The position numbers and the translations under genes were made by a program. The notes beneath the pieces are model-generated. The model had not been told where the DNA came from and did no database searches. It worked only from the letters and a program-made list of their open reading frames with translations. From NCBI RefSeq assembly GCF_001544515.1, contig NZ_FCOL02000001.1, forward strand, positions 310,001 through 374,000: a stretch of 64,000 nt of DNA, in the 5' to 3' direction. Shown piece after piece: positions 16,219-47,057 of the stretch. The DNA comes from Caballeronia terrestris (GTDB lineage: Bacteria > Pseudomonadota > Gammaproteobacteria > Burkholderiales > Burkholderiaceae). Within the stretch, counting starts at the first letter, position 1, and every line of letters begins with the position of its first letter.

Positions 16219-17091
16219 TCAGGCCCGCGCGCAACGGTCGCGCAGTTGCAGGATCATCGGCGTGAAGATGAGCTGCATCGCGAGTCCCATCTTTCCGCCT
16301 GGCACGACGATCACGTTCGGCCGCGACATGAACGAGTCGTGCAGCATGGTGAGGAGATACGGGAAGTCGATGCCCTTCGGCCGCGTAAAGCGGATCACGA
16401 CGAAGCTCTCGTCCGGCTGCGGAATTTCGCGCGCGGTGAACGGGTTCGACGTATCCACGGTCGGCACGCGCTGGAAGTTCACATGCGTGCGCGAGAACTG
16501 CGGACAGATGTAGTTCACGTAGTCCGGCATGCGACGCAGGATCGTATCGACGACTGCTTCGTGCGAATAACCGCGCATCGTCTGGTCCCGGTGCAGCTTC
16601 TGAATCCACTCGAGATTGATGATCGGCACGACGCCGACGAGCAGGTCCGCATGACGCGCGATGTCCACGTCGCCCGTGACGGCGGCGCCGTGCAGGCCTT
16701 CGTAGAACATCAGGTCGGTGCCTTCTGCGATGTCTTCCCATGGCGTGAACGTGCCCGCGTCCTGCTTGTAGTGCGCGGCTTCGACGTCGTCGTGGATGTA
16801 GCGGCGCAGCTTGCCGGTGCCGGTTTCGCCGTAGCTCGCGAAAAGCCGTTCGAGTTCCGCAAGCAGGTTGGCTTCCGGGCCGAAGTGGCTGAAGTTGACG
16901 AGGCCGTCGCGCTCGCTTTGTTTCATCGCCTCGCGCATGCCGAGGCGGTCGTAGCGATGAAATGCATCTCCTTCGACGACCTGCGCGTTGATGCGTTCGC
17001 GCCTGAAGATGTGCGTGAAGCTCTTCATGACGGTGGTGGTGCCGGCGCCGCTGGAGCCGGTCACGGCGATGATCGGATGTTTGACTGACAT
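16219..17091 (-). CDS. cbbP: Phosphoribulokinase
   Basis: A 290-residue proteobacterial-type phosphoribulokinase that phosphorylates ribulose-5-phosphate to the RuBisCO substrate. The start at 17091 gives MSVKHPIIAV and puts the P-loop GSSGAGTTT at residues 12-20; the longer open frame runs back into the leader. Other signs are EGDAFHRYDR and FYEGLHGAAVTGDVDIARHADL. It is preceded by a separate 98-base spacer from cbbF that carries the repeated leader palindrome (17114-17135), so its translation or transcript stability may be set apart from the upstream genes. Confidence 0.96.
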   Translation of the reverse strand: MSVKHPIIAVTGSSGAGTTTVMKSFTHIFRRERINAQVVEGDAFHRYDRLGMREAMKQSERDGLVNFSHFGPEANLLAELERLFASYGETGTGKLRRYIHDDVEAAHYKQDAGTFTPWEDIAEGTDLMFYEGLHGAAVTGDVDIARHADLLVGVVPIINLEWIQKLHRDQTMRGYSHEAVVDTILRRMPDYVNYICPQFSRTHVNFQRVPTVDTSNPFTAREIPQPDESFVVIRFTRPKGIDFPYLLTMLHDSFMSRPNVIVVPGGKMGLAMQLIFTPMILQLRDRCARA

Positions 17092-17113
17092 GCGCTCTCC
17101 CTTGTCGACCGGT

Positions 17114-17135
17114 GTTAGCGCTTCAGCGCTTACTC
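17114..17135 (-). promoter_or_regulatory. Leader palindrome before cbbP
   Basis: Reading on the cbbP strand, the core AGCGCTGAAGCGCT lies 22 bases before the start codon, with the ribosome site between. Near-identical copies precede the TonB receptor (36367-36388) and an SDR gene (47036-47057) in the same orientation and position. The palindrome can be read in the cbbP frame as SAEALT. A short upstream ORF (ATG at 17144, four codons) ends within it. Confidence 0.6.
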
Positions 17136-17189
17136 CGGTCGCATGCAACCAAGTTGCTAGTTCAAATTTGTTCTGCGCTATTTGCAGCG

Positions 17190-18269
17190 TCACACCGGAT
17201 CAGGCAAAAAAAGCGACCGCTCATTAAAAAGCGGCGACGTATAAGGCTTGTCCTCGCCGCGATCGTATTCCCCGTGATAACGCCCGATGCGCGCCACTTC
17301 GTTCTTCGAGCCGAGGATCACCGGCACGCGCTCATGCAGCGCGTGCGGCTTTACATCGAGGATGCGTTCGCGTCCGGTGATCGACATGCCGCCCGCCTGC
17401 TCGACGAGAAAGCTCATCGGGCTCGCTTCGTAGAGCAGGCGCAGACGTCCCTGCATCGCGGGCGTCTTGAAGTCGCGCGGATACATGAATACGCCGCCGC
17501 GCATCAGGATGCGATGCACTTCCGCGACCATCGACGCAATCCAGCGCATGTTGAAATCGCGCTGGCGGCAGCCGCTTTTGCCGTCCTTGCATTCCTGCAC
17601 GTAGCGGCGCACCGGCGGCTCCCAGAAGCGTTCGTTCGATGCGTTGATCGCGAACTCGCACGAATCCTCGGGGATGCGGATATCGGAATGCGTCAGCACG
17701 AAGTTGCCGACGTCGCGTTCCAGCGTGAAGCCGTGCGTGCCGTTGCCGACGGAGAGCACGAGCATCGTCGAGGGGCCGTATATCGCATAGCCCGCGGCCA
17801 CTTGCTCGCGGCCGGGGCGCAGGAAAGCCGCATCGCCCGACGTGCCATTCACGCGCAGCACGGAGAAGATCGACCCGACCACGCCGTTGATGTCGATATT
17901 CGACGATCCATCGAGCGGATCGAATGCAAGCAGATATTCACCGCGCGGATACGCGTCGGGAATCGCGTAGACGCCCTCCATTTCCTCCGACACCATGCCC
18001 GCGAGCAGGCCGTCCCACTCGCAATGCTGCAGGAATATCTCGTTGGTCGCGAGGTCGAGCTTCTTCTGCTCCTCGCCGTGCGTGTTGTGCGTCTCGGCGG
18101 ACCCGTAGTTGCCGCCGAGCGCGCCCTTCGTGAGCGCGGCGGAGATGGTCTTGATCGACGCGGCCACGTCGATGAGAAGCGCCGACAAGCCGCTCGCGGA
18201 TTCTGGCCCGGGCTTGCGGTCGAGCGTGTCGATGAGGAATTTCGAAAGGGTCGTTCGTCCGTCCTGCAT
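17190..18269 (-). CDS. cbbF: Fructose-1,6-bisphosphatase, class I
   Basis: A 359-residue class I fructose-bisphosphatase that releases phosphate from fructose-1,6-bisphosphate. Metal-binding and active-site segments are [20 protein letters not shown] and [22 protein letters not shown] (about residues 110-140), followed by [20 protein letters not shown] and [17 protein letters not shown]. It lies between cbbX and cbbP in the leftward operon; 18 bases separate it from cbbX. Class I enzymes of this length are usual in Calvin operons of Burkholderiales. Confidence 0.96.
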
Positions 18270-18287
18270 GGCACTCTCCTGAGAGGT

Positions 18288-19244
18288 CTATCGAATCGGA
18301 TCGGGTGGCGGCGTGCCGGATGAATCAGCGAAGATGCGGCTCGCAAGGATGTCGCTCGCGGCGATGAGCGAGAGCGCCGCGCTGTCAGTCGGCGCGCCGC
18401 CTTGCAAAGCATCGGCGAAGAGGCGGTTCGCCTGACGCAGCCGCGCGCGGTCGAGCGCATTGCGCACCGAGCGCGCGTTCGCGAAGTTCGGCTGCGCGAT
18501 GCGGCGCGCGAGATAGTCTTCGAACGCATCGCGCGATGCGTGATCGAGCCGATAATGCATCGAATCGAGCATGCGTTCGGCGATCAGCAGCAGCTCGGCC
18601 GCATCGTAATCGGGGAACGTGATGTGATGCGCGATGCGTGAACGAAAGCCCGGATTGCTCTTGAAGAACGTGTCCATGCGCGACTCGTAGCCTGCAAGGA
18701 TCACGACGAGATCGCCGCGCTGGTTCTCCATCGTCTGCAGCAGAATCTCGATCGCTTCCTGCCCGTAGTCGCGCTCGTTCTCCGGGCGATACAGGTAATA
18801 CGCTTCATCGATGAAGAGCACGCCGCCCATCGCGCGCTTGAGCACGTCGCGCGTCTTGGGCGCCGTGTGGCCGATGTACTGGCCGACGAGATCGTCGCGC
18901 GTCACCGACACCAGATGATTGCGCCGGATATAGCCAAGCCGGTGCAGCACTTCGGCCATGCGCAGCGCAACGGTCGTCTTGCCGGTGCCGGGGTTGCCGG
19001 AGAAGCACATGTGCAGCGTCGGCGCACCGCTTGCAATGCCGATCGTTTCGCGTGCCCGCTCCACGAGCAGATGCGCGGCGATTTCGCGGATGCGCGTCTT
19101 CACGGGCACGAGGCCGACGAGGTCGCGGTCGAGTTCGGCAAGCACTTCACCGATGCCCGACTCGCGGAACAGCGCGACGAGATCGACGCTCGGCGTATCG
19201 GTTGACTCGATGACGGGCATGTCGAGGATGGCTTCGGCGGACAT
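18288..19244 (-). CDS. cbbX: Red-type RuBisCO activase
   Basis: A 318-residue AAA+ protein that frees form IC/ID RuBisCO from inhibitory sugar phosphates by pulling on the C-terminus of the large subunit. Walker A is GNPGTGKTT at residues 83-91 and Walker B is [13 protein letters not shown]. The pore-loop region ([19 protein letters not shown]) and the sensor arginine stretch [17 protein letters not shown] are also present. It is 3 bases downstream of cbbS, the usual order cbbLSX, and its presence by itself indicates red-type RuBisCO. Confidence 0.97.
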
Positions 19245-19247
19245 CGT

Positions 19248-19673
19248 TCATCGCTCCGTGTAGCGTTCGCCAGCAGGCCGGTCACTCGCATAGCTCTTGA
19301 TCGCGTAGCGCTGCACGCGGCCTGGGCCGTCCTGGCGTTCGAGGCGGAAGCCGGGTTCCGCATCGGGACGATTGACGATGAACGAGAGGCGCATCGTTTC
19401 GAAGGTGCGCACGGAATCGAATGCGTTGACCTTGATGTAATGCTGGGGATACGTGGTGCGGCACGCGTTGACTTCCTGCAACACGCCGGCGGCATCGTGG
19501 AGATCGAACATGGGGAGGCCCCACATTTCCCAATACGTGTTCCGCGGATGCGGATCGTCGGTGAACTCTACGGAACAGGCCCAGCCTTGTGCAAGGGCAT
19601 AGTCGATCTGCTTCGTGATTTCTTCGTCAGTCAGTTCCGGGAGGAAGGAGAAAGTGCCTTGGGTTATGCGCAT
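19248..19673 (-). CDS. cbbS: RuBisCO small subunit, red type
   Basis: A 141-residue small subunit. The start gives [19 protein letters not shown], the standard beginning of form IC subunits; the open frame extends further upstream but only into the cbbL tail. [19 protein letters not shown] is the conserved core, and the C-terminal extension ([13 protein letters not shown] and beyond) is the beta-hairpin that marks red-type enzymes. It is 29 bases after cbbL. Confidence 0.97.
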
Positions 19674-19702
19674 GATCTTGGTCCTTTGGAAGGGGTTTAG
19701 CT

Positions 19703-21523
<1,821 letters not shown>

Positions 21524-21598
21524 ATGCAATGGACCACCCCTAGCTTCACCGATATGCGTTTTGGTTTTGAAATCACGATGTATATCGCCACCCGTTAA
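21524..21598 (+). CDS. pqqA: PQQ precursor peptide
   Basis: A 24-residue peptide beginning MQWTTPSFTDMRFGFEITMY. The glutamate at residue 16 and tyrosine at residue 20 are in the E-x3-Y spacing that PqqE crosslinks to build pyrroloquinoline quinone; the ends match known PqqA peptides. A very strong ribosome site (GAGGAGGA at 21511) fixes the start. It is too short for most gene callers. It sits 9.9 kb away from pqqBCDE, next to the methylofuran genes, and is followed at once by a hairpin that would limit read-through. Confidence 0.95.
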   Translation: MQWTTPSFTDMRFGFEITMYIATR

Positions 21599-21635
21599 TC
21601 CCGCACGAGCCGCGATGAGCGGCTGCCGTGCGGGA
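21599..21635 (+). terminator. Hairpin after pqqA
   Basis: The arms TCCCGCACG (21599-21607) and CGTGCGGGA (21627-21635) enclose a second short stem (AGCCGC with GCGGCT). It begins one base after the pqqA stop. The T-rich tract behind it is short (GTTGTTCTGG), so it may act both as a partial terminator and as a 3-prime stabiliser allowing much more pqqA than downstream product. Confidence 0.7.
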
Positions 21636-21698
21636 CCGTTGTTCTGGTAGTACAACCTGCCGGCTCAGAGCCAGTCGCCAAGACCAGCGTTCCCCGCC

Positions 21699-22271
21699 AT
21701 GATTTTCGAAACGATCGTCACGACCGCGGCGCGCGATGGCCGGCCCCACATCGCACCGATGGGCGTCCGCTTCGAGGACGACATCGCCATCCTCGCGCCC
21801 TTTCGTCCTTCGACGACGCTCGACAACATCCTCGCCACCCGCGCCGCCGTGGTCAACTTCACGACCGACGTCCGCGTCTTCGCGGGCTGCGTGACCGGCG
21901 CGTCGCGCGAATGGCCGACGCTGCCCGCAAGCCGCGTCGAAAGCGTGCGGCTCGAAGGATCGCTTGCGCACGTTGAGCTGCGCCTCGACGAATTGCTCGA
22001 TGACGAGGCGCGTCCCGTGCTTCATATGAAATGCGTGCATCGCGAGACGCATGCGCCGTTTGCAGGCTTCAATCGCGCGCAATCTGCCGTCGTGGAAGGC
22101 GCGATTCTCGTGAGCCGGCTTTTCATGCTGCCGCCCGAAAAAGTGGACAGCGAGATGGCGTACCTTCAGATCGCCATCGACAAGACCGCCGGCGACGTCG
22201 AGCGCATCGCCTGGACCTGGCTCAACGAAGCCATCGCAAAGTTTCGCAGCGACCCTTCCCACCCGCAGTAA
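21699..22271 (+). CDS. DUF447 flavin-binding-like protein
   Basis: A 190-residue protein of the DUF447 family, which has an FMN-binding split-barrel fold. Seen: MIFETIVTTAARDGRPHIAPMGV at the N-terminus (like flavin reductases and pyridoxamine oxidases), VVNFTTDVRVFAGCVTG, and FNRAQSAVVEGAILVSRLFML. Homologues occur in methanogens and in H4MPT/methylofuran clusters of methylotrophs, so a role in C1 cofactor biosynthesis is likely, but the reaction is unknown. It is followed 19 bases later by mfnB in the same orientation. Confidence 0.82.
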   Translation: MIFETIVTTAARDGRPHIAPMGVRFEDDIAILAPFRPSTTLDNILATRAAVVNFTTDVRVFAGCVTGASREWPTLPASRVESVRLEGSLAHVELRLDELLDDEARPVLHMKCVHRETHAPFAGFNRAQSAVVEGAILVSRLFMLPPEKVDSEMAYLQIAIDKTAGDVERIAWTWLNEAIAKFRSDPSHPQ

Positions 22272-22290
22272 CCGCCGTAACGGAGACACC

Positions 22291-22989
22291 ATGACCGCCC
22301 TGCTCGCGAGCGTCCGCTCGTCCGCTGAAGCGCTCGACGCCGCGCATGCCGGCGCCGAGCTGATCGACCTGAAGGAGCCGGGCGCGGGCGCGCTGGGCGG
22401 CGTGGCACTCGATGAAATCGGCCGCATCGTACGCGCGTTGCGGGCGCAGTATCCGGTGAAGCCGATCAGCGCGACGATCGGCGACCTGCCGACCAATGCC
22501 TTCGACGAAATCGCCGCGCGCGTGATCGACGTGAGCCAGGCGGGCGTGGATTACGTTAAGGTCGGCGTGAATCCCGGGCCGGACGCGGCGCGCTGTCTCG
22601 CGTTGCTCGCGAGCCTGCCGGCGTCGGTGGTGCCGGTACTGCTGTCGGATGACGGCGCGGACGCGGAACTCGCCGCGCTCGCGGGAAGGCTGGGCTTCGC
22701 GGGCATCGTCTTCGATACGGCAAACAAGGACGGCCGCACGCTCTTCGATTGCGTCGATGCGCCGACGCTCGCGCGCTGCCTCGGCGCGGCGGGTGCGCGC
22801 GGATCAATGACGTGCGTGGCGGGTTCGCTGGGCTGGGCGCAGCTCGCGCAGATTCGCGCGCTGGCGCCGGATATCGCGGGCTTTCGCACGGCGCTCTGCG
22901 ATGAAGCCGAAGGGCGCGCGGGACGGCTCGATCCGAAGCGCGTGGCGCTTTGGGCCGACGCGCTACATCACGCAACCCACGCAGCTTGA
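22291..22989 (+). CDS. mfnB: (5-formylfuran-3-yl)methyl phosphate synthase
   Basis: A 232-residue TIM-barrel enzyme that makes the furan ring of methanofuran and methylofuran from two molecules of glyceraldehyde-3-phosphate. Family signs: LLASVRSSAEALDAAHAGAE, LIDLKEPGAGALGG with the active-site lysine, ISATIGDLP, and VDYVKVGV with the second lysine. A clear ribosome site (CGGAGA) precedes the ATG. It converges with the kinase gene with a single base between the two stops. Confidence 0.92.
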   Translation: MTALLASVRSSAEALDAAHAGAELIDLKEPGAGALGGVALDEIGRIVRALRAQYPVKPISATIGDLPTNAFDEIAARVIDVSQAGVDYVKVGVNPGPDAARCLALLASLPASVVPVLLSDDGADAELAALAGRLGFAGIVFDTANKDGRTLFDCVDAPTLARCLGAAGARGSMTCVAGSLGWAQLAQIRALAPDIAGFRTALCDEAEGRAGRLDPKRVALWADALHHATHAA

Positions 22990-22990
22990 A

Positions 22991-23581
22991 TCAAACCACC
23001 GGCACGTTCAGCAAGCGGTCGCGCATCAGCCCAATATCGTCCTTGCTGAACAACTCGACGACGTAGTTCGCGTCCTTCACATGACTCACGAACCGTGCGT
23101 CGATCACGCCGCTCGCCGCAAGCGTTTCGAGCGGCGCGCCGGCATCGACGGGACATGACTTCACGACCATCAGGCGCTCGGCGTTGAGCGTCGTGGAGAG
23201 CATTGCGGCGAGGCTGTCGGAGGTGGTGTCCCAGTTGGTGGTGGAATCGGGCGTGACGCGCATGAGGCCGGTCGGCACCCACACGGCGACCTGACCGTCG
23301 CGCAACGCGCCGCGGATCCGTTCTTCGCTCGATGCGAGCACGAGCTCAGGCAGCACGCCCTGCATGAGGATCGCGTATTGCGCCATCGCGAGCAGACACA
23401 TGTTGTGGGCGGCGAGGTCGTCGAAACGCCATTCGATCTGATACTGCCGCACCGCGTCCGCGAAATCGCCGCCGCCCGGCACGATCACCACCCGTCCGCC
23501 GCCCACTTCCCAAAGCTGCGTCAGCCACTCGCGCAGCGCCGGGTCGTGACTCAGGCTGCCCCCGATCTTCACCACCCACAT
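22991..23581 (-). CDS. Amino acid kinase family protein (MfnE-like)
   Basis: A 196-residue kinase of the aspartokinase/uridylate kinase fold, with MWVVKIGGSLSHDPALREWL at the start and VVIVPGGGDFADAVRQ as the phosphate-binding loop. TTNWDTTSDSLAAML is the typical substrate segment. In methanogens MfnE phosphorylates the aminomethylfuran phosphate to its diphosphate; here the neighbours are MfnF- and MfnD-like genes, so the same step in methylofuran assembly is likely. It is the last gene of a leftward three-gene operon. Confidence 0.83.
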   Translation of the reverse strand: MWVVKIGGSLSHDPALREWLTQLWEVGGGRVVIVPGGGDFADAVRQYQIEWRFDDLAAHNMCLLAMAQYAILMQGVLPELVLASSEERIRGALRDGQVAVWVPTGLMRVTPDSTTNWDTTSDSLAAMLSTTLNAERLMVVKSCPVDAGAPLETLAASGVIDARFVSHVKDANYVVELFSKDDIGLMRDRLLNVPVV

Positions 23582-33387: not shown

Positions 33388-33391
33388 GAGC

Positions 33392-36224: not shown

Positions 36225-36366
36225 TTTACGCAGGTGCCTCGTGTGCGTAGGGCTCATCGAACCGCATTTGGGAAGGCTTCCCCGCGCGATCGGGAGAACT
36301 TCCCGGGGCGCGGGGCGTTTGCTTGTGCGACGCTTACAGCAAAGGCCCAAGGCCATAAAAGAACGA

Positions 36367-36388
36367 GAGTAAGCGCTAAAGCGCTAAC
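36367..36388 (+). promoter_or_regulatory. Leader palindrome before the TonB receptor
   Basis: The core AGCGCTAAAGCGCT ends 21 bases before the receptor start, with a GACAGGAG ribosome site between. It is the second of three copies in the window. One frame across it reads SAKALTLIDRRRR and stops at 36413, overlapping the receptor start codon as ATGA, so a leader peptide coupled to the receptor is possible. Confidence 0.6.
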
Positions 36389-36409
36389 TCTCATCGACAG
36401 GAGACGACG

Positions 36410-38719
36410 ATGAAGAGCATGACGCGCAAAACGCGGTCCGCGCATCCGTTCAAACCCCGATCGGCGTTGCGGCTTTGCTTCGGCAGCGCCCTCGCGGGCC
36501 TGACGGCGAGCGCGTGGGCGCAGGCGGAGCCCGCATCCGAAGCGGTGGTCACGAAGGAACTGCCATCGATCATCGTCGTCGGTACGACGCCGCTGCTGGG
36601 CGTCGGCACGCCGCTCGAAAAAGTGCCCGCGAACGTGCAGACGATCCGCGGACGCGACATCGAGCAACAGCATTCCCCCACGATCAGCGACTTCCTGTCG
36701 AACAACACGGTCAGCGTCACGACCAACGACGCGCAGGGCAATTCCTCGCAGACCGACATCAACTATCGCGGCTTCACAGCGTCGCCGTTGCTCGGCACCC
36801 CGCAGGGGCTGTCGGTGTTTCTCGACGGCGTGCGCGTCAACGAGCCGTTCGGCGACGTCGTGAACTGGGACCTGATCCCGCAGGCCGCGATCAATACGAT
36901 CCAGCTAATCCCCGGCTCGAATCCGACGTTCGGCCTGAATACGCTAGGCGGCGCGGTTGTCGTATCGACGAAGAACGGCCGCAGCAATCCGGGCGGCAAT
37001 GCCGAAGTGAGCTTCGGCTCGTTCGGGCGCAAGACGGCGCAGATCGAACAGGGCGGCGTGATCGGTAGCAACCTCGACTACTACTTCACTGCCAACGTCT
37101 CGAACGACAACGGCTGGGCCGACCACAACGCGAGCAAGTTGCGCCAGGCGTTCGGCAAGCTGCGCTACACCGACGCCGACACCACGATTTCCCTGTCGAT
37201 GGGCGCCGCCGACAACACGCTCGACGGCTCGCAGACGATCCCGCGATCGTTCCTCGACAACCGCCATCAGGCGTACACGTTCCCCGATACGAACGAGAAC
37301 CAGGTCGGCTACCTGACGCTTTCCGGCGACCACTACTTCTCGCCGAACGTGCAACTGAGCGGCAACCTGTACTACCGTCACTATCGCAACAAGAACACGA
37401 GCAGCAACGTCAACGACGACTTCGGCGAAGTCGGGGACGATGGCGTCATTGACGACATCCAGGCGTTCAACGATCAGTCGGTGATCGTGACCGACAGCTA
37501 CGGCGGCAGCCTGCAACTCACGCTGCTCAACAAGCTCCTCGGGCACGACAACCAGCTTGTGATCGGCGCGGCCGGCGACTTCGCGAACTCGCACTACACG
37601 CAGGCCGCGCAGGAAGCGGCCTTTACCGATACGCGCGCGACGGTCGGCATCGGCGGCTTCGAGCCGCAGACCGATGCGAAGACGCGCAACGAGAACTGGG
37701 GCATCTACTTCGAGAACACGTTCTCGTTCAACGAACAATGGTCGATGACGCTCGCGGGGCGCTACAACTGGTCGAAGGCCGCGATCGGCGACGAGAGCGG
37801 CGTGCAACCGCTGCTCGACGGCAACCATACGTTCTCGCGTTTCAATCCGGCGATCGGCTTCAACTGGAATCCGACGCCCGCCTTCACCGCCTACGCAACT
37901 TATAACGAAGGCATGCGCTCGCCGACGGCGATCGAACTCGCGTGCGCCGATCCGGCCGCGCCGTGTTCGCTGCCGAACGACTTTATCGCGGACCCGGATC
38001 TCCAGCCCGTGATCTCGAAGACGTTCGAAGTGGGCGCGCGCGGACGTATCGGCAACGCGACGACGTGGAGCGCGGCGGTCTACAGCACGAATCTGAGTAA
38101 CGACATTCAGTTCGTCAGCAGCCAGGGCGCGGCCAGCACGCTGGGGTATTTTCAGAACGTCGGGAAGACGCGGCGGCAAGGGCTCGAACTCGCAGGGCGC
38201 ACGCAGTATGGGCCGCTGGGGATCGCGGCGAGCTATAGCTACGTGAACGCGACGTATCGATCGACGTGGACGGAAAGCAGCGCAAGCAATTCGAGCGCCG
38301 ATGCGGACGGCAATATCACCGTGCACTCGGGCGATCGAATTCCTGGCATTCCGTCGAACACGATCAAATTGCGGCTGGATTATGCTGCTACGCCCAAGTG
38401 GAATGTCGGTACGAATCTGACCTATCGGAACAGTATCTTCGCTCGCGGTGATGAGGACAATCAGGATTCGAACGGCAAGATCGCGGGGTATTTCCTGATC
38501 GATCTCGATACGACTTATAACGTGACCAAGCAGTTGCAGGTGTTCGGGACTGTGAAGAATCTGCTCAACAAGAAGTATTCGACTTTCGGCATTCTTGGGG
38601 AGAATTTCTTCAACGGGCCGAATCACACGTTCGATAGCGGGGCTACTACGAATGAGCAGTTTTTGGGCTTGGGCGCGCCCAGAGGGGTTTGGGTGGGGAT
38701 GAGGTATTCATGGCTGTGA
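36410..38719 (+). CDS. TonB-dependent outer-membrane receptor, possible PQQ receptor
   Basis: A 769-residue receptor with a long signal peptide (about 40 residues, ending ASAWAQA), a TonB box in ELPSIIVVGTTPL, a plug domain (NVQTIRGRDIEQQHSPTIS, VFLDGVRVNEPFGD, LNTLGGAVVVSTKNG) and a 22-strand-type barrel ending in the aromatic tail RGVWVGMRYSWL. The substrate cannot be read directly. The convergent neighbour is a YncE-like propeller, the same pairing as the E. coli PQQ receptor gene yncD (pqqU) with yncE, and pqqBCDE lies 2 kb upstream, so PQQ or a lanthanide complex is the best guess. Confidence 0.88.
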   Translation: MKSMTRKTRSAHPFKPRSALRLCFGSALAGLTASAWAQAEPASEAVVTKELPSIIVVGTTPLLGVGTPLEKVPANVQTIRGRDIEQQHSPTISDFLSNNTVSVTTNDAQGNSSQTDINYRGFTASPLLGTPQGLSVFLDGVRVNEPFGDVVNWDLIPQAAINTIQLIPGSNPTFGLNTLGGAVVVSTKNGRSNPGGNAEVSFGSFGRKTAQIEQGGVIGSNLDYYFTANVSNDNGWADHNASKLRQAFGKLRYTDADTTISLSMGAADNTLDGSQTIPRSFLDNRHQAYTFPDTNENQVGYLTLSGDHYFSPNVQLSGNLYYRHYRNKNTSSNVNDDFGEVGDDGVIDDIQAFNDQSVIVTDSYGGSLQLTLLNKLLGHDNQLVIGAAGDFANSHYTQAAQEAAFTDTRATVGIGGFEPQTDAKTRNENWGIYFENTFSFNEQWSMTLAGRYNWSKAAIGDESGVQPLLDGNHTFSRFNPAIGFNWNPTPAFTAYATYNEGMRSPTAIELACADPAAPCSLPNDFIADPDLQPVISKTFEVGARGRIGNATTWSAAVYSTNLSNDIQFVSSQGAASTLGYFQNVGKTRRQGLELAGRTQYGPLGIAASYSYVNATYRSTWTESSASNSSADADGNITVHSGDRIPGIPSNTIKLRLDYAATPKWNVGTNLTYRNSIFARGDEDNQDSNGKIAGYFLIDLDTTYNVTKQLQVFGTVKNLLNKKYSTFGILGENFFNGPNHTFDSGATTNEQFLGLGAPRGVWVGMRYSWL

Positions 38720-38762: not shown

Positions 38763-38768
38763 CACCGA

Positions 38769-39963: not shown

Positions 39964-40488
39964 TCAGCGCGTGGCGTCGGCATCGGCGGCGAGCAGATCG
40001 ACGAGCGATTTCACGCCGCGCTGCCACGAGAGATCCGTGTTGCCGCGAATATCGACGGAGCGCTGAAACACTGGCTTGCCGGTCGCGACATCCTCGACGC
40101 GCAGGTTGATGTTGAGAATCAGGTTGCTGATCTTCTGCACCCAGCACACCGCGACGCGCTCGACGCCGAGCTTGCGTCCCACCTGAAGCTCGCAGCCGTT
40201 GCACGCGTTCATGTCCTGCGACGCCTGCAGCCCCGCGATCAGGTCGCCCGCGGGCGCATTGTCGGCGACGCGAAAGAGGTCGCGCGCACTCAACTGATCG
40301 CGCAATTCGTCGCTGATCATGCCGAGACGCGCGTTCTGGATGCGCGTGACATCGGCGTCGTTGTAGGCGGCGTTATCGTCGATCAGCGCGCAGTTCACGA
40401 CCGCAATCGACTTCTCCGCCGCCTGTACGTGCGATGCGACCAGGCACGCACAAACCGCTATCGCACCAACGACGTTCTGCCGGTTCAT
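39964..40488 (-). CDS. Secreted DUF2380/DUF3280-like protein
   Basis: A 174-residue exported protein of no known function; the DUF assignment is by impression. Residues 1-23 are a signal peptide (IAVCACLVASHVQA). The mature part starts KSIAVVNCALIDDN, and has a pair of cysteines in MNACNGCELQVGRK plus C in VAVCWVQKISNLILNINL; a fold like a nucleotide-free TolB N-domain is possible. It lies upstream of the beta-propeller gene in the same direction (145-base gap), so it may be part of the same periplasmic PQQ-linked set. Confidence 0.7.
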   Translation of the reverse strand: MNRQNVVGAIAVCACLVASHVQAAEKSIAVVNCALIDDNAAYNDADVTRIQNARLGMISDELRDQLSARDLFRVADNAPAGDLIAGLQASQDMNACNGCELQVGRKLGVERVAVCWVQKISNLILNINLRVEDVATGKPVFQRSVDIRGNTDLSWQRGVKSLVDLLAADADATR

Positions 40489-40670
40489 GAATCGCTCCTC
40501 GTAGAGAGATCGACGTTAGACCAACGCCGCGCGGAGCACAACGCTATTGCGTCGTCTCGGGGCCAACTCAATCGCGCGGCCTGTTCGATCGAATCCAACA
40601 CCGGAGCGAAACCGCGCACGCGCGCGTGGCGCCGAGCCTTGTCGCACGGACCTCTGGTCAAATCACACGA

Positions 40671-40688
40671 TTGGCACAAGGCTTGCAG
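40671..40688 (+). promoter_or_regulatory. Sigma-54 promoter for the 65-residue protein
   Basis: TTGGCACAAGGCTTGCAG is a near-perfect sigma-54 promoter: GG at 40673-40674, GC at 40685-40686, ten bases between, and TTGGCAC and TTGCA blocks intact. Transcription would start near 40698, leaving about 42 bases of leader before the ATG at 40740. It is the strongest promoter-like sequence in the window. Confidence 0.85.
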
Positions 40689-40739
40689 AAACCTCGGTGA
40701 GCACACGTGGTGCTCGCAACCGATCTCAGGAGAATCGTC

Positions 40740-40937
40740 ATGGAACGCGCCCTCATCATCAAGGACCTCCCCGTCACCGCCGAAGAAGCCACGCTCGCAC
40801 CCGAGAAGATGAAACTGCTGCGAGGCGGCCGCGCCGTGCAAGTGACGGTCGATGGGCAGCGCCCCGGCACCGTCGACGACTGGCAGATGAACATCGCCAT
40901 TTTCGAAGGCCGGATCAACGGGCCGTATATCGTTTGA
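40740..40937 (+). CDS. Small protein of unknown function under sigma-54 control
   Basis: A 65-residue protein that I do not recognise, starting MERALIIKDLPVTAEEATLA. It has no signal peptide, no membrane segment and no cysteine. The C-terminal half (QVTVDGQRPGTVDDWQMNIA and IFEGRINGPYIV) looks like a small beta structure. A good ribosome site (CAGGAGA at 40727) and a near-perfect sigma-54 promoter support expression. It stands alone, with the receptor, propeller and PQQ genes on its left. It could be a carrier, adaptor or peptide precursor; none is shown. Confidence 0.7.
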   Translation: MERALIIKDLPVTAEEATLAPEKMKLLRGGRAVQVTVDGQRPGTVDDWQMNIAIFEGRINGPYIV

Positions 40938-41253
40938 CGCTTCACGCATCATTTCGAGCCCTTCGGCCGAGCAGGCGAAGGGCCACAACATCGCCCCGCA
41001 GCAAATCCCCGTGGTAAACCCTCCGCGACGAATTCATTAAGCCGCACGTCGAATCCGGAAATTTTCCGATCCTGCGAGCTTCTACCATTTGCTCCATCGA
41101 ATCCGCCAATCGACCAGGAGCCAGATGAAATGAGCCGTAACGACGCACCCTAGACCCCGAACGACCCGCAAGTCACCCAGCCAGGCCGACGAAGTGGCCC
41201 GAGAGCCGCCGCGCACCTACAGCAATCGCACGATTCATGTTTGGAGAGCACGA
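40938..41253. other. 316-base intergenic region
   Basis: No gene is seen. An 8-bp hairpin (40958-40965 with 40976-40983, ten-base loop) lies 20 bases after the small protein stop; it has no T-run and is only a weak terminator candidate. The rest is presumed leader and promoter of the MFS gene, with no clear promoter boxes. Confidence 0.5.
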
Positions 41254-42621
41254 ATGAGTTCAACGAAAGCGGTTTCCGGCCACGCCTCGGGCGCTGGCAT
41301 TCAGGCGGGCGGCATCGCGCCGCCGCATCATGCAGCCCAGTCCGCCACCGACCCGCGCATCTTGAAGCGCGCCGCGATGGCGAGTTTCATCGGCAACTTC
41401 GTCGAGTGGTTCGACTACGCGTCGTACGGCTATCTCGCGACGATCATCGCCGTCGTCTTCTTTCCCCAGTCCGATGCCGCCACCGGCCTCCTCGCCGCTT
41501 ACGCCGTGTTCGCGATCTCGTTCATCGTGCGGCCCCTCGGCGGCATTGTCTGGGGACATTTCGGCGACAAGATCGGACGGCGCACCGCGCTCTCGCTGTC
41601 GATTTTGATCATGTCGTGCTCGACGTTCCTCATCGCGTTCCTGCCGACCTACGCGCAAGTCGGCATCGTCGCGCCGATCCTGCTGCTCGTCGTGCGGCTC
41701 GTGCAGGGCTTCTCGGCCTCGGGCGAATATGCGGGCGCCTCGGCCTTCCTCGCGGAGTACGCGCCGGAGGGCAAGCGCGGCATCTATACGAGCATCGTGC
41801 CGGCGAGCACGGCAGCGGGCCTGCTGTTCGGCTCGATCTTCGTCGCCGTGATGCACGCGGTGCTCACGTCCGACCAGTTGCACTCGTTCGGCTGGCGTCT
41901 GCCCTTTTTGCTCGCCGCGCCGTTCGGTTTGATCGGCCGCTATATCCGCGTGCGTCTCGAAGAGTCGCCGACCTTCAAGGCGCTCGAATCGTCGCATCAG
42001 GTGGCACGCGCGCCGGTCCGTGAACTGCTCTCGATGCATCGCGGCAAGATGCTGATCGCGTTCGGCGTGACGTGTCTCAACGCCGTCGCGTTCTATCTCG
42101 TCCTGAGCTACATGCCGACGTATCTGTCGACCGAAATGGGCGTGAGCGAAACGATGTCGTTCATTGCGGCGACTATCTCGCTCACCGCGTACATCGGCTT
42201 CGTGTTCATCATGGGCGCGCTGTCGGACCGCGTCGGGCGCAAGACGATGCTGATCGGCGCCTCGATCCTCTTCGCCGCGCTGACGGTGCCGCTCTTCAAG
42301 GGGCTGGTGGGCGCGAGCTTCATGACGATCGTGCTGATCCAGATCGCGTTCGGCGCGCTTCTCACGATGAACGACGGCACGCTGCCGTGCTTTCTCTCGG
42401 AGATCTTTCCGACGCGCGTTCGCTACAGCGGCTTCGCGTTCTGCTTCAACGCGGCGAACGCGATCTTCGGCGGCACGGCGCCGTTCATCGCGACGTGGCT
42501 GATCGGGGCGACCGGCAACAAGCTGGCGCCGGCATGGTATCTCGTCGGGGCATCGGCGGTTGCGCTGGTGGCGATGCTCGCTAGCCGGGAGACGGCGCGC
42601 AAGCCGCTCGACAATAGCTAA
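41254..42621 (+). CDS. MFS transporter, metabolite:H+ symporter family
   Basis: A 455-residue inner-membrane transporter with twelve hydrophobic segments. The MHS-family signs are ASFIGNFVEWFDYASYGYLA in helix 1, the loop 2-3 motif GHFGDKIGRRTALSLSI, and LVQGFSASGEYAGASAFLAE; a second loop motif is GALSDRVGRKTMLIG. Relatives carry dicarboxylates, proline-betaine or aromatic acids with protons; the substrate here is unknown. A 35-residue Gly/Ala/His-rich N-terminal tail precedes helix 1. ATG 41254 is preferred to 41194. A strong terminator follows. Confidence 0.9.
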   Translation: MSSTKAVSGHASGAGIQAGGIAPPHHAAQSATDPRILKRAAMASFIGNFVEWFDYASYGYLATIIAVVFFPQSDAATGLLAAYAVFAISFIVRPLGGIVWGHFGDKIGRRTALSLSILIMSCSTFLIAFLPTYAQVGIVAPILLLVVRLVQGFSASGEYAGASAFLAEYAPEGKRGIYTSIVPASTAAGLLFGSIFVAVMHAVLTSDQLHSFGWRLPFLLAAPFGLIGRYIRVRLEESPTFKALESSHQVARAPVRELLSMHRGKMLIAFGVTCLNAVAFYLVLSYMPTYLSTEMGVSETMSFIAATISLTAYIGFVFIMGALSDRVGRKTMLIGASILFAALTVPLFKGLVGASFMTIVLIQIAFGALLTMNDGTLPCFLSEIFPTRVRYSGFAFCFNAANAIFGGTAPFIATWLIGATGNKLAPAWYLVGASAVALVAMLASRETARKPLDNS

Positions 42622-42628
42622 ACCTGAC

Positions 42629-42660
42629 GAAGCCGGTCTCGCGACCGGCTTCTTCTTTTA
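42629..42660. terminator. Terminator between convergent MFS genes
   Basis: A perfect 10-bp stem (GAAGCCGGTC with GACCGGCTTC) and a TCGC loop, followed by TTCTTTT on the plus strand. It clearly serves the rightward MFS gene. The leftward MFS gene ends at 42658 just inside it, and a short A-rich flank on the left is weaker for that direction. Confidence 0.88.
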
Positions 42661-44019
42661 CTCAGCAGCGGTCACAGTCGTCGCAGACTGCGCGAGCGCG
42701 CCATGCCGGCTCAAAGCTCCTAAAGCGAATGCAGCAACCAACGCGGGCACCGCAAGAAACGTGAACACCGCGCTGAACTGCAAGCCCATGCTCATCATCA
42801 AACCGCCCGTCATCGCACCGGCCACCGCGCCCATCCGTCCGATGCCGAGCATCCACGCGACGCCGGTCGCACGGCTGCGCGTCGGATAGAACGCTGCGGC
42901 GAGCGCGGACATCGACGTCACCGCGCTCGTGACCGCCGTCCCCGTGAGGAAGATCAGGACGCTGAGCCACACCTGATCGCCGATGCCGCGTCCGATCGTC
43001 AGCACGAGTGCCGCTGCGAGCACGAAAGCGCACGCATTGACGCGCCGCGCGTTGAATCGGTCCATGATCCAGCCCAGACACAGGTTGCCGAGAATGCCGC
43101 CGAGCGGAAAGAGCGACGTCGTGAGCGCCGCGCGTTCGGCGCTGAAGCCGGCGTCCTTGAAGAGCGTCGGCAGCCAGTTCGTCAGCAGGTAGAAGATCAT
43201 CAGGCCCATGAAATACGCGAGCCACAGCATCGCCGTGCCGAACCGGTAAGGCCGCGACACAACGAGCGACAGCGCGGATTTATCGGCGACGCTGTCGCGC
43301 GGATCGGCTGCGGTGAATGCGCAGTTCGCAAGACGCGGATCGGCGGCGATGCGGCGCAGAACCCGCGCGATGCGATCCCCGGCGCGCTTTCGCACCACCA
43401 TGAATTGCGCCGATTCCGGCAGCAGCAAGACGAGCAGCACGCTCAAGACGAGCGGCCCGACGCCGCCCGCGACCAGCACGCTCGGCCAGCCGAAGTGCGG
43501 GATCATCCACGCCGCGCACAATCCGCCGATCGAGAGGCCGACGGAGAACCCGCAAAACATCGTGTTCACCACGACCGAGCGGATGCGCGACGGCGCATAT
43601 TCCGACATCAGCGTGACGGCGTTGGGCATCGCGGCGCCGAGACCGAGTCCGGTGAGAAAGCGCAGCGCGGTCAGCGATTCGATCGATCCCGCATACGCCG
43701 ACGCGAGGCTCCACGCGCCGAAGAAAAACACTGAAAGCACGAGCACCGTCTTGCGCCCGAGCCGGTCCGCGACAGGACCCGCCGCAAGCGCGCCGATGCC
43801 GAGCCCGACGAGCGCGGCGCTCATCACCGGCCCGAGCGCCGCGCGGCTCACGCCCCAGTCGCCGATCAGCGACGGCGCGATGAAACCGACGGCGGCGGTA
43901 TCGAAGCCATCGGCCGCGACGACCAGAAAGCACAGCACCAAAATCGTCCATTGATACGGCGAGAAACGCTGTTCGTCGATGAAAGTCTGCACGTCGAGCG
44001 TGGGGGCAAGCGGGTTCAT
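42658..44019 (-). CDS. MFS transporter, aromatic acid:H+ symporter family
   Basis: A 453-residue, twelve-helix transporter of AAHS type. Seen: WTILVLCFLVVAADGFDTAA in helix 1 (the DGFD motif of the family), GPVADRLGRKTVLVLS between helices 2 and 3, and GLGLGAAMPNAVTLMSEYAP. It is the last of four leftward genes with an SDR, an FAD dehydrogenase and a NIPSNAP protein, so it likely imports the substrate that these convert. Family members take up benzoate, hydroxybenzoates and related acids. Confidence 0.9.
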   Translation of the reverse strand: MNPLAPTLDVQTFIDEQRFSPYQWTILVLCFLVVAADGFDTAAVGFIAPSLIGDWGVSRAALGPVMSAALVGLGIGALAAGPVADRLGRKTVLVLSVFFFGAWSLASAYAGSIESLTALRFLTGLGLGAAMPNAVTLMSEYAPSRIRSVVVNTMFCGFSVGLSIGGLCAAWMIPHFGWPSVLVAGGVGPLVLSVLLVLLLPESAQFMVVRKRAGDRIARVLRRIAADPRLANCAFTAADPRDSVADKSALSLVVSRPYRFGTAMLWLAYFMGLMIFYLLTNWLPTLFKDAGFSAERAALTTSLFPLGGILGNLCLGWIMDRFNARRVNACAFVLAAALVLTIGRGIGDQVWLSVLIFLTGTAVTSAVTSMSALAAAFYPTRSRATGVAWMLGIGRMGAVAGAMTGGLMMSMGLQFSAVFTFLAVPALVAAFALGALSRHGALAQSATTVTAAE

Positions 44020-44067
44020 GTCGGTTGTCTCCGTGTGTTTGATGTATGCGTGCGATAGCTTCTGCGT

Positions 44068-44406
44068 CTATCGCACGGCAGCCGAAAGGCTCTTGAACGT
44101 CACGCGCCGGATGATCCGGCTCTCCTGCGCGGTAATCAGATGCGCCGATGCCTGCAAATAAGCGGGCCATTCGGGATCGGCATCGCGGGCGGTGCGGCGC
44201 TCGTCGTAATCGGCGATGCTCTCGTAGCCCCACAGATGCACCACCTGATTGAGCGCGCCGATATCGCTCATGTAGAAGCCGACCGGCGCACCGAGATACT
44301 TCAACTGAATCGGCATCGCGAGGCGATCGAACACGTCGATGAACTCGGCCATGCCGCGCGGACGGATCGTGTAGATGCGGTGATCGACGAAGGGTTTCGT
44401 GCTCAT
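44068..44406 (-). CDS. NIPSNAP family protein
   Basis: A 112-residue NIPSNAP-type protein with a dimeric ferredoxin-like fold. Signs are FVDHRIYTIRPRGMAEFID, NQVVHLWGYESIADYDERR and a terminal SRIIRRVTFKSL. These proteins are found in bacterial catabolic operons, sometimes as isomerase- or monooxygenase-like partners. The start overlaps the stop of the FAD dehydrogenase gene by 4 bases (ATGA). The function in this operon is unknown. Confidence 0.85.
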   Translation of the reverse strand: MSTKPFVDHRIYTIRPRGMAEFIDVFDRLAMPIQLKYLGAPVGFYMSDIGALNQVVHLWGYESIADYDERRTARDADPEWPAYLQASAHLITAQESRIIRRVTFKSLSAAVR

Positions 44407-46145
44407 GCTGCGCTCCTCAATTCGTCTTGCTGCTGCGTTTGCGCTTTCCCGGCGATATGCAGCGCGGTGAGATAACCGAAGGTCATGATCGGCCCGAGCG
44501 TGATGCCCGCGCCCGGATAGTTGCCGCCCATGATGCTGGCGCGGTCGTTGCCGACGGCGTAGAGGCCGGGCACCGGATCGTCGCCCTTGAGCACTTGACC
44601 GGCGGTGTTGGTCGCGATGCCGTCGAAAGTGCCGAGATCGCCCATCACCACTTTCAGCGCGTAGTACGGGCCATTGCCGATCGGCGCGACGCACGGATTG
44701 GGTGTGTGCGACGCATCGCCGAGATAGCGGTTGAACGATGTCGTGCCGCGTCCGAACTGCGCGTCCTCGTTGCGTTGCGCTCCGGCGTTGTACTCGCGCA
44801 CGGTGGCTTCGAGCGCGGCGTCATCGATACCTGCGTGGCGCGCGAGTTCCGCGAGCGTGCGGCCCTTCACGAGATACCCGCTGCGCAGATGTGCGCCAAG
44901 CGGCAACGGAGCGGGCTTCGCGAAGCCGAGGCCGTACTTGCGGATCGTCGCGTGATCGCAGACTAGCCACATCGCCGTCTCGCGTTCGTTCTTGCACGCG
45001 TCGATCATCGCGGCGCCCACGTCGTGATACGAGTTCGCTTCGTTGGTGAAGCGGCGGCCGTTGCGCGTTACGCCGATGATGCCCGGCTTGTAGCGGTCGA
45101 GCAGATGCGGGAACACGCCGAACCTGCCGTCCTTGAGTGGCACGCGCGATACCGGCATCCACGCGGCAGGCTGCGGATAGCGGATCGGCACGCGGCCGCC
45201 GACGCCCTCGGCCATCTTCGCGCCGTCGCCGGTGTTGCCGGGCGGCACGGGCGAAACGTGCTCGCCGCCCCGTTGCAGATGCGGATACGCCGCCGCAATG
45301 CGCGCAATATCGTGCGAGAAGCCACCGCATGCGAGCACCACCGCACGGCGCGCCGTAATGCGCATCTCGCCTTGCGCGCCGCTTACGATTGCACCGCATA
45401 CGCGCCCTTTCTCGACGATCAGTTCCTTCGCGCCCGTGTTCGTGTGGATCGGGATGCCGAGATCGAGCGCCGATTTCGCGAGGCGCGCGGCGAGTGCGTT
45501 TCCGCTCGTCACCTGCACGCCGCGACGATAAAGCGCGAGTTCCTTGAGATGGCTCGCGAGGCGCTTGGCGACGTACCACGCGGAAGCGACCGACTTCGTC
45601 GCGTTGAAGAAGTGCTTGAGATCCGCGCTCGACGAGTTGAACATCATGCCGATGAACGTGATCGTCTTGAGCGGCGGACGCAATCGCGCGAGATCGGCGC
45701 CGAGCGCGGTCGCATCGAACGGCGCCGCGACGATCGAGCGGCCCACATCGACGCCGCCCGGCGCATCCGGGTGATAGTCGGGATAGAGCGTAGGCAGGAA
45801 TTTGACGTCGGTCTCGCGCTCGAAGAAATCGACCATGCGCGGGCCCGCATCGAGGAACGCTTCGACCGCGTTCGCGTCGTATTGCGCGCCGGTCTCGTGG
45901 CGCATGTAGGTGCGCGCGGCTTCGAGGTCGTCGGCGATGCCCGCGTCCTTCGCATGCCGGTTGCCCGGAATCCACAGCACGCCGCCCGAAAACGCGGTCG
46001 TGCCGCCAAAAAACGCTTCCTTCTCGACGACGATCACGTCGAGCCCCTGTGTCTTCGCTGTGATGGCAGTCGATAAACCGCCTGCCCCCGAGCCGATCAC
46101 GAGCAGATCGCAAGCGACATCGGACGACCGCGTTACGCTAGTCAT
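44403..46145 (-). CDS. FAD-dependent dehydrogenase, ketosteroid-dehydrogenase-like
   Basis: A 580-residue flavoprotein of the fumarate reductase / 3-ketosteroid-delta-1-dehydrogenase group. The N-terminal FAD motif is LLVIGSGAGGLSTAITAK, followed by EKEAFFGGTTAFSGGVLWIP; the second flavin region is RRAVVLACGGFSHD, and GLYAVGNDRASIMGGNYPG lies at the C-terminus. Such enzymes introduce a double bond next to a keto group of a ring. With an SDR, a NIPSNAP protein and an aromatic-acid-type importer, a pathway for a cyclic ketone or aromatic-like compound is likely, but not defined. Confidence 0.87.
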   Translation of the reverse strand: MTSVTRSSDVACDLLVIGSGAGGLSTAITAKTQGLDVIVVEKEAFFGGTTAFSGGVLWIPGNRHAKDAGIADDLEAARTYMRHETGAQYDANAVEAFLDAGPRMVDFFERETDVKFLPTLYPDYHPDAPGGVDVGRSIVAAPFDATALGADLARLRPPLKTITFIGMMFNSSSADLKHFFNATKSVASAWYVAKRLASHLKELALYRRGVQVTSGNALAARLAKSALDLGIPIHTNTGAKELIVEKGRVCGAIVSGAQGEMRITARRAVVLACGGFSHDIARIAAAYPHLQRGGEHVSPVPPGNTGDGAKMAEGVGGRVPIRYPQPAAWMPVSRVPLKDGRFGVFPHLLDRYKPGIIGVTRNGRRFTNEANSYHDVGAAMIDACKNERETAMWLVCDHATIRKYGLGFAKPAPLPLGAHLRSGYLVKGRTLAELARHAGIDDAALEATVREYNAGAQRNEDAQFGRGTTSFNRYLGDASHTPNPCVAPIGNGPYYALKVVMGDLGTFDGIATNTAGQVLKGDDPVPGLYAVGNDRASIMGGNYPGAGITLGPIMTFGYLTALHIAGKAQTQQQDELRSAA

Positions 46146-46185
46146 GGTGAAACTCCTTTGAGCTTTGAAAGGGCCGAAAATGGCC

Positions 46186-47010
46186 TCAGGCGGCCTTGGC
46201 GGGCGCTTCGAAACCGGGTCGCGGCACGAGGTCCATCAGCATGCTTTCGAGCCCGCCATCGACCACGATTTCAGCGCCGTTCACATACGCGGCACGCTCG
46301 CTTGCGAGGAACGCGGCGACGTTTGCGATATCGTCCGGGCGTCCGATGCGGCGGCTCGCCGTCATCGCGCTGCGGCGCGCTTCGACATCGCCTTGCGCGT
46401 AGAACGCCTGCGAGAGCGGCGTGCGGATCATGCCGGGGCACACCGTGTTGCTGCGCACGCCGCGCGGGCCCCATTCGGCGGCGATCTGGCGCGAGAGCAT
46501 CGCGATGGCGGCCTTGCTCGGGCTGTACGCGCCGCTATAGGTTTGCGGATGGTGCGCGGCCACCGATGCCACGTGCACGATGCTGCCCGAGCCGCGCGCG
46601 AGCATGCCGCGCGCGAACGCCTGCGAGCAGAGCATGTAGCCGGTGAGATTGACGGCGAGCATCGCGTTCCAGGCATCGAGTCCGATGTCTTCGATGCCGC
46701 CCGCGCGCAGGAGGCCCGCGTTGTTGACGAGCACGTCGGCGGGGCCGAACTTGCGTTCCACTTGCGCGGCCGCTTGGTTGACGCTCGATGGATCGCTGAT
46801 GTCGCAGACGATGGCGATCGCTTCAATGCCGCATATACGCAGCGCTTGAGCGGCGTCGTGGCAGCCGGCTTCATCGCGATCGAGCAGCGCGAGCCGCGCA
46901 CCGGCTGCCGCAAACGTCTCGCCGATCGCCCGGCCGATACCGCCCGCCGCGCCCGTCACCACGCAAACGCGCGAATCGAGGCTGAGCCAATGAGTGTTGT
47001 CTTTAGTCAT
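46186..47010 (-). CDS. SDR family oxidoreductase
   Basis: A 274-residue classical short-chain dehydrogenase. The nucleotide motif is VVTGAAGGIGRAIGE near residue 18, NNAGLL follows, and the catalytic set is Ser in VHVASVAAHH, Tyr and Lys in YSGAYSPSKAA. The start at 47010 is preceded by AAAGGAGAC; the longer open frame runs through the repeated leader palindrome. It is the first gene of a four-gene leftward catabolic operon, 40 bases ahead of the FAD dehydrogenase gene. Confidence 0.92.
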   Translation of the reverse strand: MTKDNTHWLSLDSRVCVVTGAAGGIGRAIGETFAAAGARLALLDRDEAGCHDAAQALRICGIEAIAIVCDISDPSSVNQAAAQVERKFGPADVLVNNAGLLRAGGIEDIGLDAWNAMLAVNLTGYMLCSQAFARGMLARGSGSIVHVASVAAHHPQTYSGAYSPSKAAIAMLSRQIAAEWGPRGVRSNTVCPGMIRTPLSQAFYAQGDVEARRSAMTASRRIGRPDDIANVAAFLASERAAYVNGAEIVVDGGLESMLMDLVPRPGFEAPAKAA

Positions 47011-47035
47011 ATGTCGTCTCCTTTGTCGATCCAGA

Positions 47036-47057
47036 GTTAGCGCTTTAGCGCTTGCTC
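47036..47057 (-). promoter_or_regulatory. Leader palindrome before the SDR operon
   Basis: Third copy of the leader element, core AGCGCTAAAGCGCT on the gene strand, 25 bases before the SDR start codon. Just upstream, GCAACTGCGTTGCATG resembles the sequence in the same place before cbbP. A short frame (ATG at 47066, reading MGIEQALKR) ends inside it, and the SDR frame reads SAKALT across it. Confidence 0.6.

Follow-up and report, generated by a model that had tools for sequence, protein, structure and literature searches.

ERIC/IRU, RUP and Correia elements are small non-coding mobile repeats, similar to miniature inverted-repeat transposable elements (MITEs), which end up in mRNA leaders and spacers; they are longer than the repeat described here, have terminal inverted repeats and usually show a target duplication. 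The REP2/CREN repeat is found directly before the start codons of several genes in a betaproteobacterium, with promoter control on cell contact. In Neisseria meningitidis a 150-bp CREN precedes nhba (PMC9031163). REPs and REPINs are palindromic repeats which carry a GTAG or CGTC tag, unpaired and at one end, and go with RAYT transposases. They are short, occur extragenically in tens to hundreds of copies, are transcribed, stand singly or in groups and are accompanied by an IS200-like Y1 protein; REPs are placed near the 3′ end of the gene upstream, at a varying distance from the downstream gene (PMC3733652). In marine Beggiatoaceae, TAACTGA repeats are abundant just upstream of the start codons of genes without a common function and were proposed to be post-transcriptional sites; these are simple 7-base direct repeats which mostly replace the Shine-Dalgarno sequence (SD) (PMC4679880). 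Here we describe a repeat from Caballeronia terrestris (NCBI RefSeq assembly GCF_001544515.1), which was analysed in a window of 64,000 nucleotides (contig NZ_FCOL02000001.1, positions 310,001 to 374,000). In this window one palindrome precedes the phosphoribulokinase gene cbbP, a gene for a TonB-dependent receptor and a short-chain dehydrogenase (SDR) gene. We consider it likely that all three leaders derive from a single miniature palindromic repeat, mobile and dispersed in Burkholderia sensu lato, which would insert as a single strand at the SD region.

Like REPs and REPINs, this repeat consists of short extragenic palindromes in tens of copies per genome, single or grouped, in a genome which contains a Y1 protein. 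Unlike REPs, it is found at the 5′ end of genes, flush with the SD, in one orientation and at a short fixed distance from the downstream start. Its consensus lacks the GTAG tag (none was present in the consensus of 23 aligned copies, and CGTC was confined to the stem interior of some copies) and its elements do not flank the Y1 gene. As tag, location and flanking of a RAYT gene all fail, we set it apart from REP. The word Burkholderia is absent from the text of the REP paper (PMC3733652). The repeat is like REP2/CREN in standing directly in front of the start codon at more than one gene, and both come from betaproteobacteria, but it measures ~55–67 bp rather than ~150 bp. With the TAACTGA repeats it shares a position just before the starts of functionally unrelated genes; it differs from them in being a hairpin and in being mobile, mobility not being shown in the available parts of the TAACTGA account. 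Unlike in ERIC/IRU, RUP and Correia, neither terminal inverted repeats nor a target duplication were seen, the ends GCAAC and GACA not being inverted copies of one another as in MITEs.

The core spelling AGCGCTAAAGCGCT turned up in one open-access paper, while the spellings TAGCGCTTTAGCGCT and GCATGGGACCAGAGTAA were not found in the open-access literature. A 25-base putative CRISPR repeat of Paraburkholderia terrae, GCGTAAGCGCTAAAGCGCTAACGCC, shares the core of our repeat (two strains are given for that spelling, with NI in the Cas column; PMC5968390, table 4) and is almost certainly an array made up of copies of our repeat. Unlike CRISPRs, the arrays which we found consist of near-identical whole units (48 and 50 bp), without the logic of conserved repeats and unique spacers. 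Leaders of this type should not be taken for CRISPR or for an operon-specific regulatory element. No paper naming the family was found in the open-access literature, with subscription journals and preprints outside this scope. The general REP/MITE-like kind is known; what is unusual in these mobile palindromes is that they are placed flush with the SD and in one orientation.

The three palindromes had been noticed in an earlier sequence-only reading of the window, and on re-reading the sequence we found all three in place, each on the strand of its gene (Table 1). The spacing of 21–25 bases between core and start which it had given was borne out (22, 21 and 25 bases, from the flanked core end, through TAAC, to the start codon), as was a ribosome site, GGGAG or GGAG, between palindrome and start codon; the three genes, by Pfam a phosphoribulokinase, a TonB receptor and an SDR, are functionally unrelated. 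The second upstream block which it had seen in two copies is GCAAC-N3-GTTGC on the gene strand before cbbP and SDR, and this block is missing from the TonB copy. The element is longer than had been recognised, the palindrome extending outward to GACC(A/G)GAGT...ACTC(T/C)GGTC. Exact matches to AGCGCTNAAGCGCT numbered three in the window, with no others, and 0 in 100 dinucleotide-preserving shuffles; at 3 mismatches the core pattern was not enriched in the window (67 matches, 55 expected).

Table 1 Coordinates of the repeat copies, their parts and the associated genes (window positions unless a locus is named)
Feature	Position	Strand	Evidence
cbbP core AGCGCTGAAGCGCT	17117-17130	-	sequence
TonB receptor core AGCGCTAAAGCGCT	36372-36385	+	sequence
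SDR core AGCGCTAAAGCGCT	47039-47052	-	sequence
Repeat copy before cbbP, between fructose-bisphosphatase gene and cbbP	17092..17158	-	covariance model R1 69.9 bits, E 2e-17, filters off
Small 5′ stem of cbbP copy, GCAAC-CAA-GTTGC (+ strand spelling; near-palindromic)	17145..17157	-	sequence
Large hairpin of cbbP copy, GACCGGAGTAAGCGCTGAAGCGCTAACACCGGTC	17107..17140	-	sequence and fold
Native cbbP SD GGGAG, directly 3′ of element	17097..17101	-	element-free orthologue L332 reads ACCACTAGACAAGGGAGACAAGCGCATG
cbbP start codon	17089-17091	-	
Phosphoribulokinase gene cbbP	16219..17091	-	Pfam PRK E 1.2e-66
5′-shortened repeat copy before TonB receptor	36344..36410	+	R1 54.9 bits, E 2.9e-13
Hairpin of TonB copy, CGAGAGTAAGCGCTAAAGCGCTAACTCTCATCG	36364-36396	+	
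SD of TonB copy, GGAG	36400-36403	+	
TonB receptor start codon	36410	+	
TonB-dependent receptor gene	36410..38719	+	Pfam TonB_dep_Rec_b-barrel and Plug
Repeat copy before SDR gene	47013..47080	-	R1 70.8 bits, E 1.1e-17
Small stem of SDR copy	47067-47079	-	
Large hairpin of SDR copy	~47031-47063	-	
SD of SDR copy	47018-47021	-	
SDR start codon	47008-47010	-	
Short-chain dehydrogenase gene (SDR)	46186..47010	-	Pfam adh_short_C2 E 1.1e-64
Weak degenerate element at cbbP start of more distant congener	L358 2373-2439	-	17.4 bits, E 0.034
rRNA-spacer copy, 16S-23S spacer just 5′ of 23S rRNA	L033 3013-3079, contig C158	-	rRNA and tRNAs by Rfam
Y1 (IS200-like) gene, 255 aa, only one found in this genome	L260 1399-2166; C22:65161	+	Pfam Y1_Tnp

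The presence of the repeat at a given gene was compared between relatives, with orthologue inspection limited to the fetched loci (30 for cbbP, 15 for TonB and 16 for SDR). The cbbP copy was strong in C. terrestris and Caballeronia humi (2/30), weak in a more distant congener (L358) and undetected in 27 of the 30 orthologues; the weak element may be the decayed remnant of an old insertion or a hairpin of separate origin. The TonB copy was absent from all 14 other orthologues examined and the SDR copy from all 15. In the nearest SDR orthologue, that of C. humi (96% identity), the sequence runs ...TTTACATC|AGGAGACGACACATG, compared with ...CTTCACATC[insert]AGGAGACGACATATG in C. terrestris. Across the two genomes 19 sites were alignable (from 43 further sites in C. 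terrestris only 10 aligned end to end). Seven of the 19 were empty in C. humi (L017:6274, L018, L019, L059, L083, TonB and SDR) and ten were shared (cbbP, L058, L024, L045, L054, L075, L082, L092 and two in L095), with two not classed: L016, where C. humi keeps a sequence like the small stem, and L017:3688, where the flank has diverged. At each of the seven empty sites the native SD, GGAGA, marks the insertion point: the inserts are found just on its 5′ side, nearly always in one orientation, with edges uncertain by a few bases. The cleanest is L083, which reads ATCAACAAC|GGAGAC in C. humi and TTCAACAAC[GCAACTACGTTGC...GTCGACA]GGAGAC in C. terrestris. No target duplication was visible at the seven sites (SDR being ambiguous). 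The repeat is mobile, and it is placed flush with the SD.

Alignment of the genome copies gave the full consensus GCAAC-N3-GTTGC, ATGGGAC(C/G)(A/G/C)GAGTAAGCGC-TNAA-GCGCTAACTC(N)(N)GTCGACA, with the SD coming next, or in short form GCAAC-N3-GTTGC-ATGGGACCAGAGTAAGCGC-TNAA-GCGCTAACTCTGGTCGACA. The unit of ~55–67 bp has two stems, the small GCAAC-N3-GTTGC and, after it, a hairpin of 14 bp with TNAA as its loop. Paired variants of the small stem, read from the sequences, were GCAAC/GTTGC, GCAGC/GCTGC (L027) and GCCGC/GCGGC (L084). In 123 elements from 100 named loci, 96.2% of cells in the large stem were paired and paired changes on both sides were found at 8 of the 14 pairs, with 135 such cells compared with at most 8 in slid controls. 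The inner stem and loop are near-invariant and the outer stem covaries, with paired changes which include GC to CG and AT to GC.

Within the C. terrestris genome there were 30 sites for AGCGCTNNAGCGCT versus 7 for the reversed pattern; long flanks were present at 28 of the 30, and the remaining two (L028 and L031) look coding. The covariance model R1, built from 23 copies, picks up further degenerate copies. Counts given below for this genome rest on 53 sites, with tandem copies merged and the two coding-like core matches left out. R1 matched in 51 of the 58 genomes of the genus (E up to 1e-4); its match counts take in both strands of a palindrome, and copy numbers are lower bounds because only part of the first-look candidates was scored (150 of 2761 in one scan and 89 per genome in the genus set). 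In the family, the strict pattern matched 150 of 398 genomes, spread over 7 of the 25 genera, the reversed control having none among the matches listed. A scan of all GTDB species placed, among the matches listed, 116 of the 118 fetched stretches in Burkholderia, Paraburkholderia, Caballeronia or Trinickia. The other two (L200 and L226) are Lactobacillales stretches with unrelated flanks, and we regard these as chance matches because the element flanks are lacking. One 67-base copy used as query matched 22 plasmid-collection records, all large replicons of Burkholderia, Paraburkholderia or Caballeronia, while no plasmid record matched when another copy, L083, served as query. The 67-base copy had no match among 50,697 phage records, so carriage by phages is unsupported.

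Copies usually face one way, in front of a gene. A same-strand gene start lay within 110 bases of the stem at 46 of the 53 C. terrestris sites, and 40 of these sites also had an SD-like word, in most cases 13–21 bases away from the end of the stem. The opposite strand had a called start at 21/52 sites, only 3 of them with an SD (Fisher test on SD plus start, 40/53 vs 3/52: p = 4e-14; p-values are indicative only, since the sequence rows are related by descent). Among the named loci, a start was found on the element strand at 96/110 and with an SD at 82/110, compared with 28/104 and 8/104 on the other strand; the 110 are 112 loci minus the two Lactobacillales stretches, both of which may still sit in the 104. 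The clustering before start codons across genomes which the sequence-only reading had proposed as a check is therefore present, both in C. terrestris and in the named clusters. On plasmid replicons, an SD and start followed the element in 7 of 10 examined from the 22 records, these starts having no annotation support because the PLSDB gene tables were empty for most matching replicons. It should be noted that genes were called from the length of the open reading frame (ORF), its third-position GC and the presence of an SD-like word; these calls covered 76% of the window and missed some starts.

The genes downstream of copies include ATP synthase epsilon (in two species), ATP synthase gamma, a transhydrogenase subunit and trpA, which are usually found inside operons. 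A same-strand ORF ended within 400 bases upstream at 31 of the 53 sites (median gap 75), and the many copies which sit between genes read in the same direction are probably co-transcribed. At L033, L045, L054 and L073 the C. terrestris copy is followed by GACAGAG, without a called SD. The first of these lies in an rRNA spacer (Table 1), so insertion is not confined to protein genes. A named copy in L156 (~5178-5330) ends beside what we take to be the 3′ end of 23S rRNA on the other strand. In the window spacers, 24 of 108 GGAG words were at SD positions by a rough gene call, whereas a GGAG-like word within 14 bases of a copy in the C. terrestris genome was the SD of a called gene in 23 of 27 cases. 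The bare word GGAG thus seems insufficient as a target, unless selection removes the rest.

These positions bear on a reading of the palindrome as a protein-binding operator of the LacI type, with AGCGCT half sites overlapping the promoters of a regulon. Its twofold symmetry and conserved centre would fit such a site, and TTGCAT, a 17-base gap and TAAAGC looked promoter-like before the analysis. However, the outer arms change together with no motif kept, copies occur inside operons, for example those of trpA and of ATP synthase subunits, sister species have empty sites, and there are tandem and nested copies. We rejected both operator and promoter box, and consider this explanation very improbable.

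A conserved leader peptide coupled to the gene, which the sequence-only reading had suggested, is more improbable still. Its SAKALT-type readings are correct translations at these sites, and frames are open at the three window sites, but this is not general: of 58 distinct SD-flush elements, 14 could be read through in the frame of the gene and 44 contained a stop in that frame, and the distances from core to start were spread over all three frames (29/14/15). What stands of the portable leader proposed for these unrelated genes is a portable element between the upstream sequence and the SD, without the coupled peptide.

A further explanation is a cis-regulatory RNA leader kept by selection, which would tune translation or shield the transcript, possibly by way of a common RNA-binding protein or small RNA, and would form a regulon of unrelated genes. 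The fixed position and orientation before the SD, the stable hairpin with its covarying stem and near-invariant inner stem and loop, and its occurrence in tens of transcripts all favour such a leader. We nevertheless think it unlikely, given that the element is present or absent at the same gene among close relatives and that there are copies without a start codon, 5′ of 23S rRNA (L033) and inside another repeat. The SD was not significantly more accessible in the 58 elements: its unpaired probability was 0.519 with the element, compared with 0.492 when the flanks were joined (31/58 raised, p = 0.50) and 0.482 with shuffled elements (35/58 raised, p = 0.15), and the hairpin as an opener of the SD was rejected. 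Stem mismatches on the mRNA strand comprised 11 G.U and 20 A.C cells with one odd column pair excluded (p = 0.15), and 11 and 54 with that pair, the 34 extra A.C cells possibly reflecting shifted alignment of GCGCC variants. As A.C was not rarer than G.U, the stem covariation may be at the DNA level and does not in itself argue for RNA; quasi-palindrome correction in DNA would give the same paired changes. Rfam gave 0 matches in the window at the gathering cut-off, and in six element loci (E up to 1) nothing but rRNA, tRNA and two sub-threshold matches came up; of these two, MIR395 (32.1 of 56 bits) falls on the hairpin array itself. An effect of the hairpin on translation or mRNA stability is possible as a by-product of insertion, and the hairpin may act in mRNA decay or ribosome stand-by.

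Under the dispersed-repeat reading, new copies would arise by a single-strand, hairpin-recognising insertion which leaves no target duplication and is directed to the SD region or, on the opposite strand, to the complementary TCTCC. The number of copies at a site would then shift by slippage between hairpins, and the inserted hairpin would join the mRNA leader or the spacer between two operon genes. The GACA|GGAG end is constant, the GCAAC end is common, there are hairpins near both ends and no duplication is visible, with the 5′ end varying at three sites. The two ends, the hairpins near them and the lack of a visible duplication would suit an IS200/IS605- or REP-like single-strand insertion, for which TCTCC would be a possible target. 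We suggest only tentatively that insertion is aimed at SD sequences in one orientation, giving a self-spreading leader through which a lineage could acquire a new post-transcriptional regulon. What is recognised may be GGAGA(C) as a DNA word, or recognition may depend on mRNA or transcription.

Several observations weigh against this account. The exact edges of the inserts are blurred because the element end and the SD share letters, part of the family must be old because 10 of the 19 sites are common to C. humi, and the simple ORF caller found no gene start at 7 of the 53 C. terrestris sites. A Y1 match was found in 57 of the 58 congeneric genomes and was also frequent in family genomes without the element (163/180 genomes, 18/25 genera). 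No element was found beside the Y1 gene of C. terrestris (best E 0.51), and there was no convincing R1 match in 51 Y1/RAYT loci (1 + 20 + 30, some from the same genome) with ~1.5 kb flanks. The RAYT was rejected as a partner, being nearly everywhere in the family and not adjoining the elements. The 5′ ends also vary, the TonB copy being 5′-shortened, L018 having GGAAC and the SDR insert having ~10 extra bases before GCAAC, and because of these differences they fit a template switch driven by homology or microhomology at least as well as a transposase.

Template switching without a dedicated enzyme is thus a strong rival to transposition. In this scheme the shared SD letters (CAGGAGAC) would let a nascent strand pair at a different SD-hairpin site, where the hairpin is copied before the strand switches back at a microhomology. 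The 3′ junction is constant and lies inside the shared SD letters, the 5′ junction varies as described, the cbbP target read GACAAGGGAG already before insertion (L332), and tandem and nested rearrangement shows template slippage at these hairpins. On the other hand, the cleanest junctions (L083, L017:6274, cbbP and about L059) again have GCAAC at the 5′ end, which is a defined end. We regard template switching as a real possibility, though somewhat short of probable.

Spread of a mobile repeat accounts at once for the shared structured leader on unrelated genes in Burkholderia-type genomes. If the SD is indeed the target, this would be an unusual aim for mobile DNA, because each copy lands in mRNA without breaking a gene, and dozens of unrelated genes would have been given the same structured 5′ region. 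Sister species which differ in having the hairpin at a given gene provide natural pairs, in which the effect on expression of a hairpin just 5′ of the SD can be measured.

Copies also change in place. Exact arrays were found of a 50-base unit (4.4 copies) and a 48-base unit (4 copies). L045 has three tandem units in C. humi, compared with one nested double-arm hairpin in C. terrestris; L024 and L054 are single-arm in C. humi and double-arm in C. terrestris, and L095 has a long array in C. humi and a short one in C. terrestris. These differences between species probably reflect slippage between hairpins during replication. In L134, L178, L199 and L463 the element lies within another dispersed palindrome, GGTTACTTTCTTTG...CAAAGAAAGTGAC, whose loop it occupies; L199 also has this second palindrome without the element, and L178 has the element in both orientations. 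L102 and L103 (G052:C11) contain one element pair twice, with identical scores and in opposite orientation, ~57 kb apart, which suggests a large duplicated or inverted stretch.

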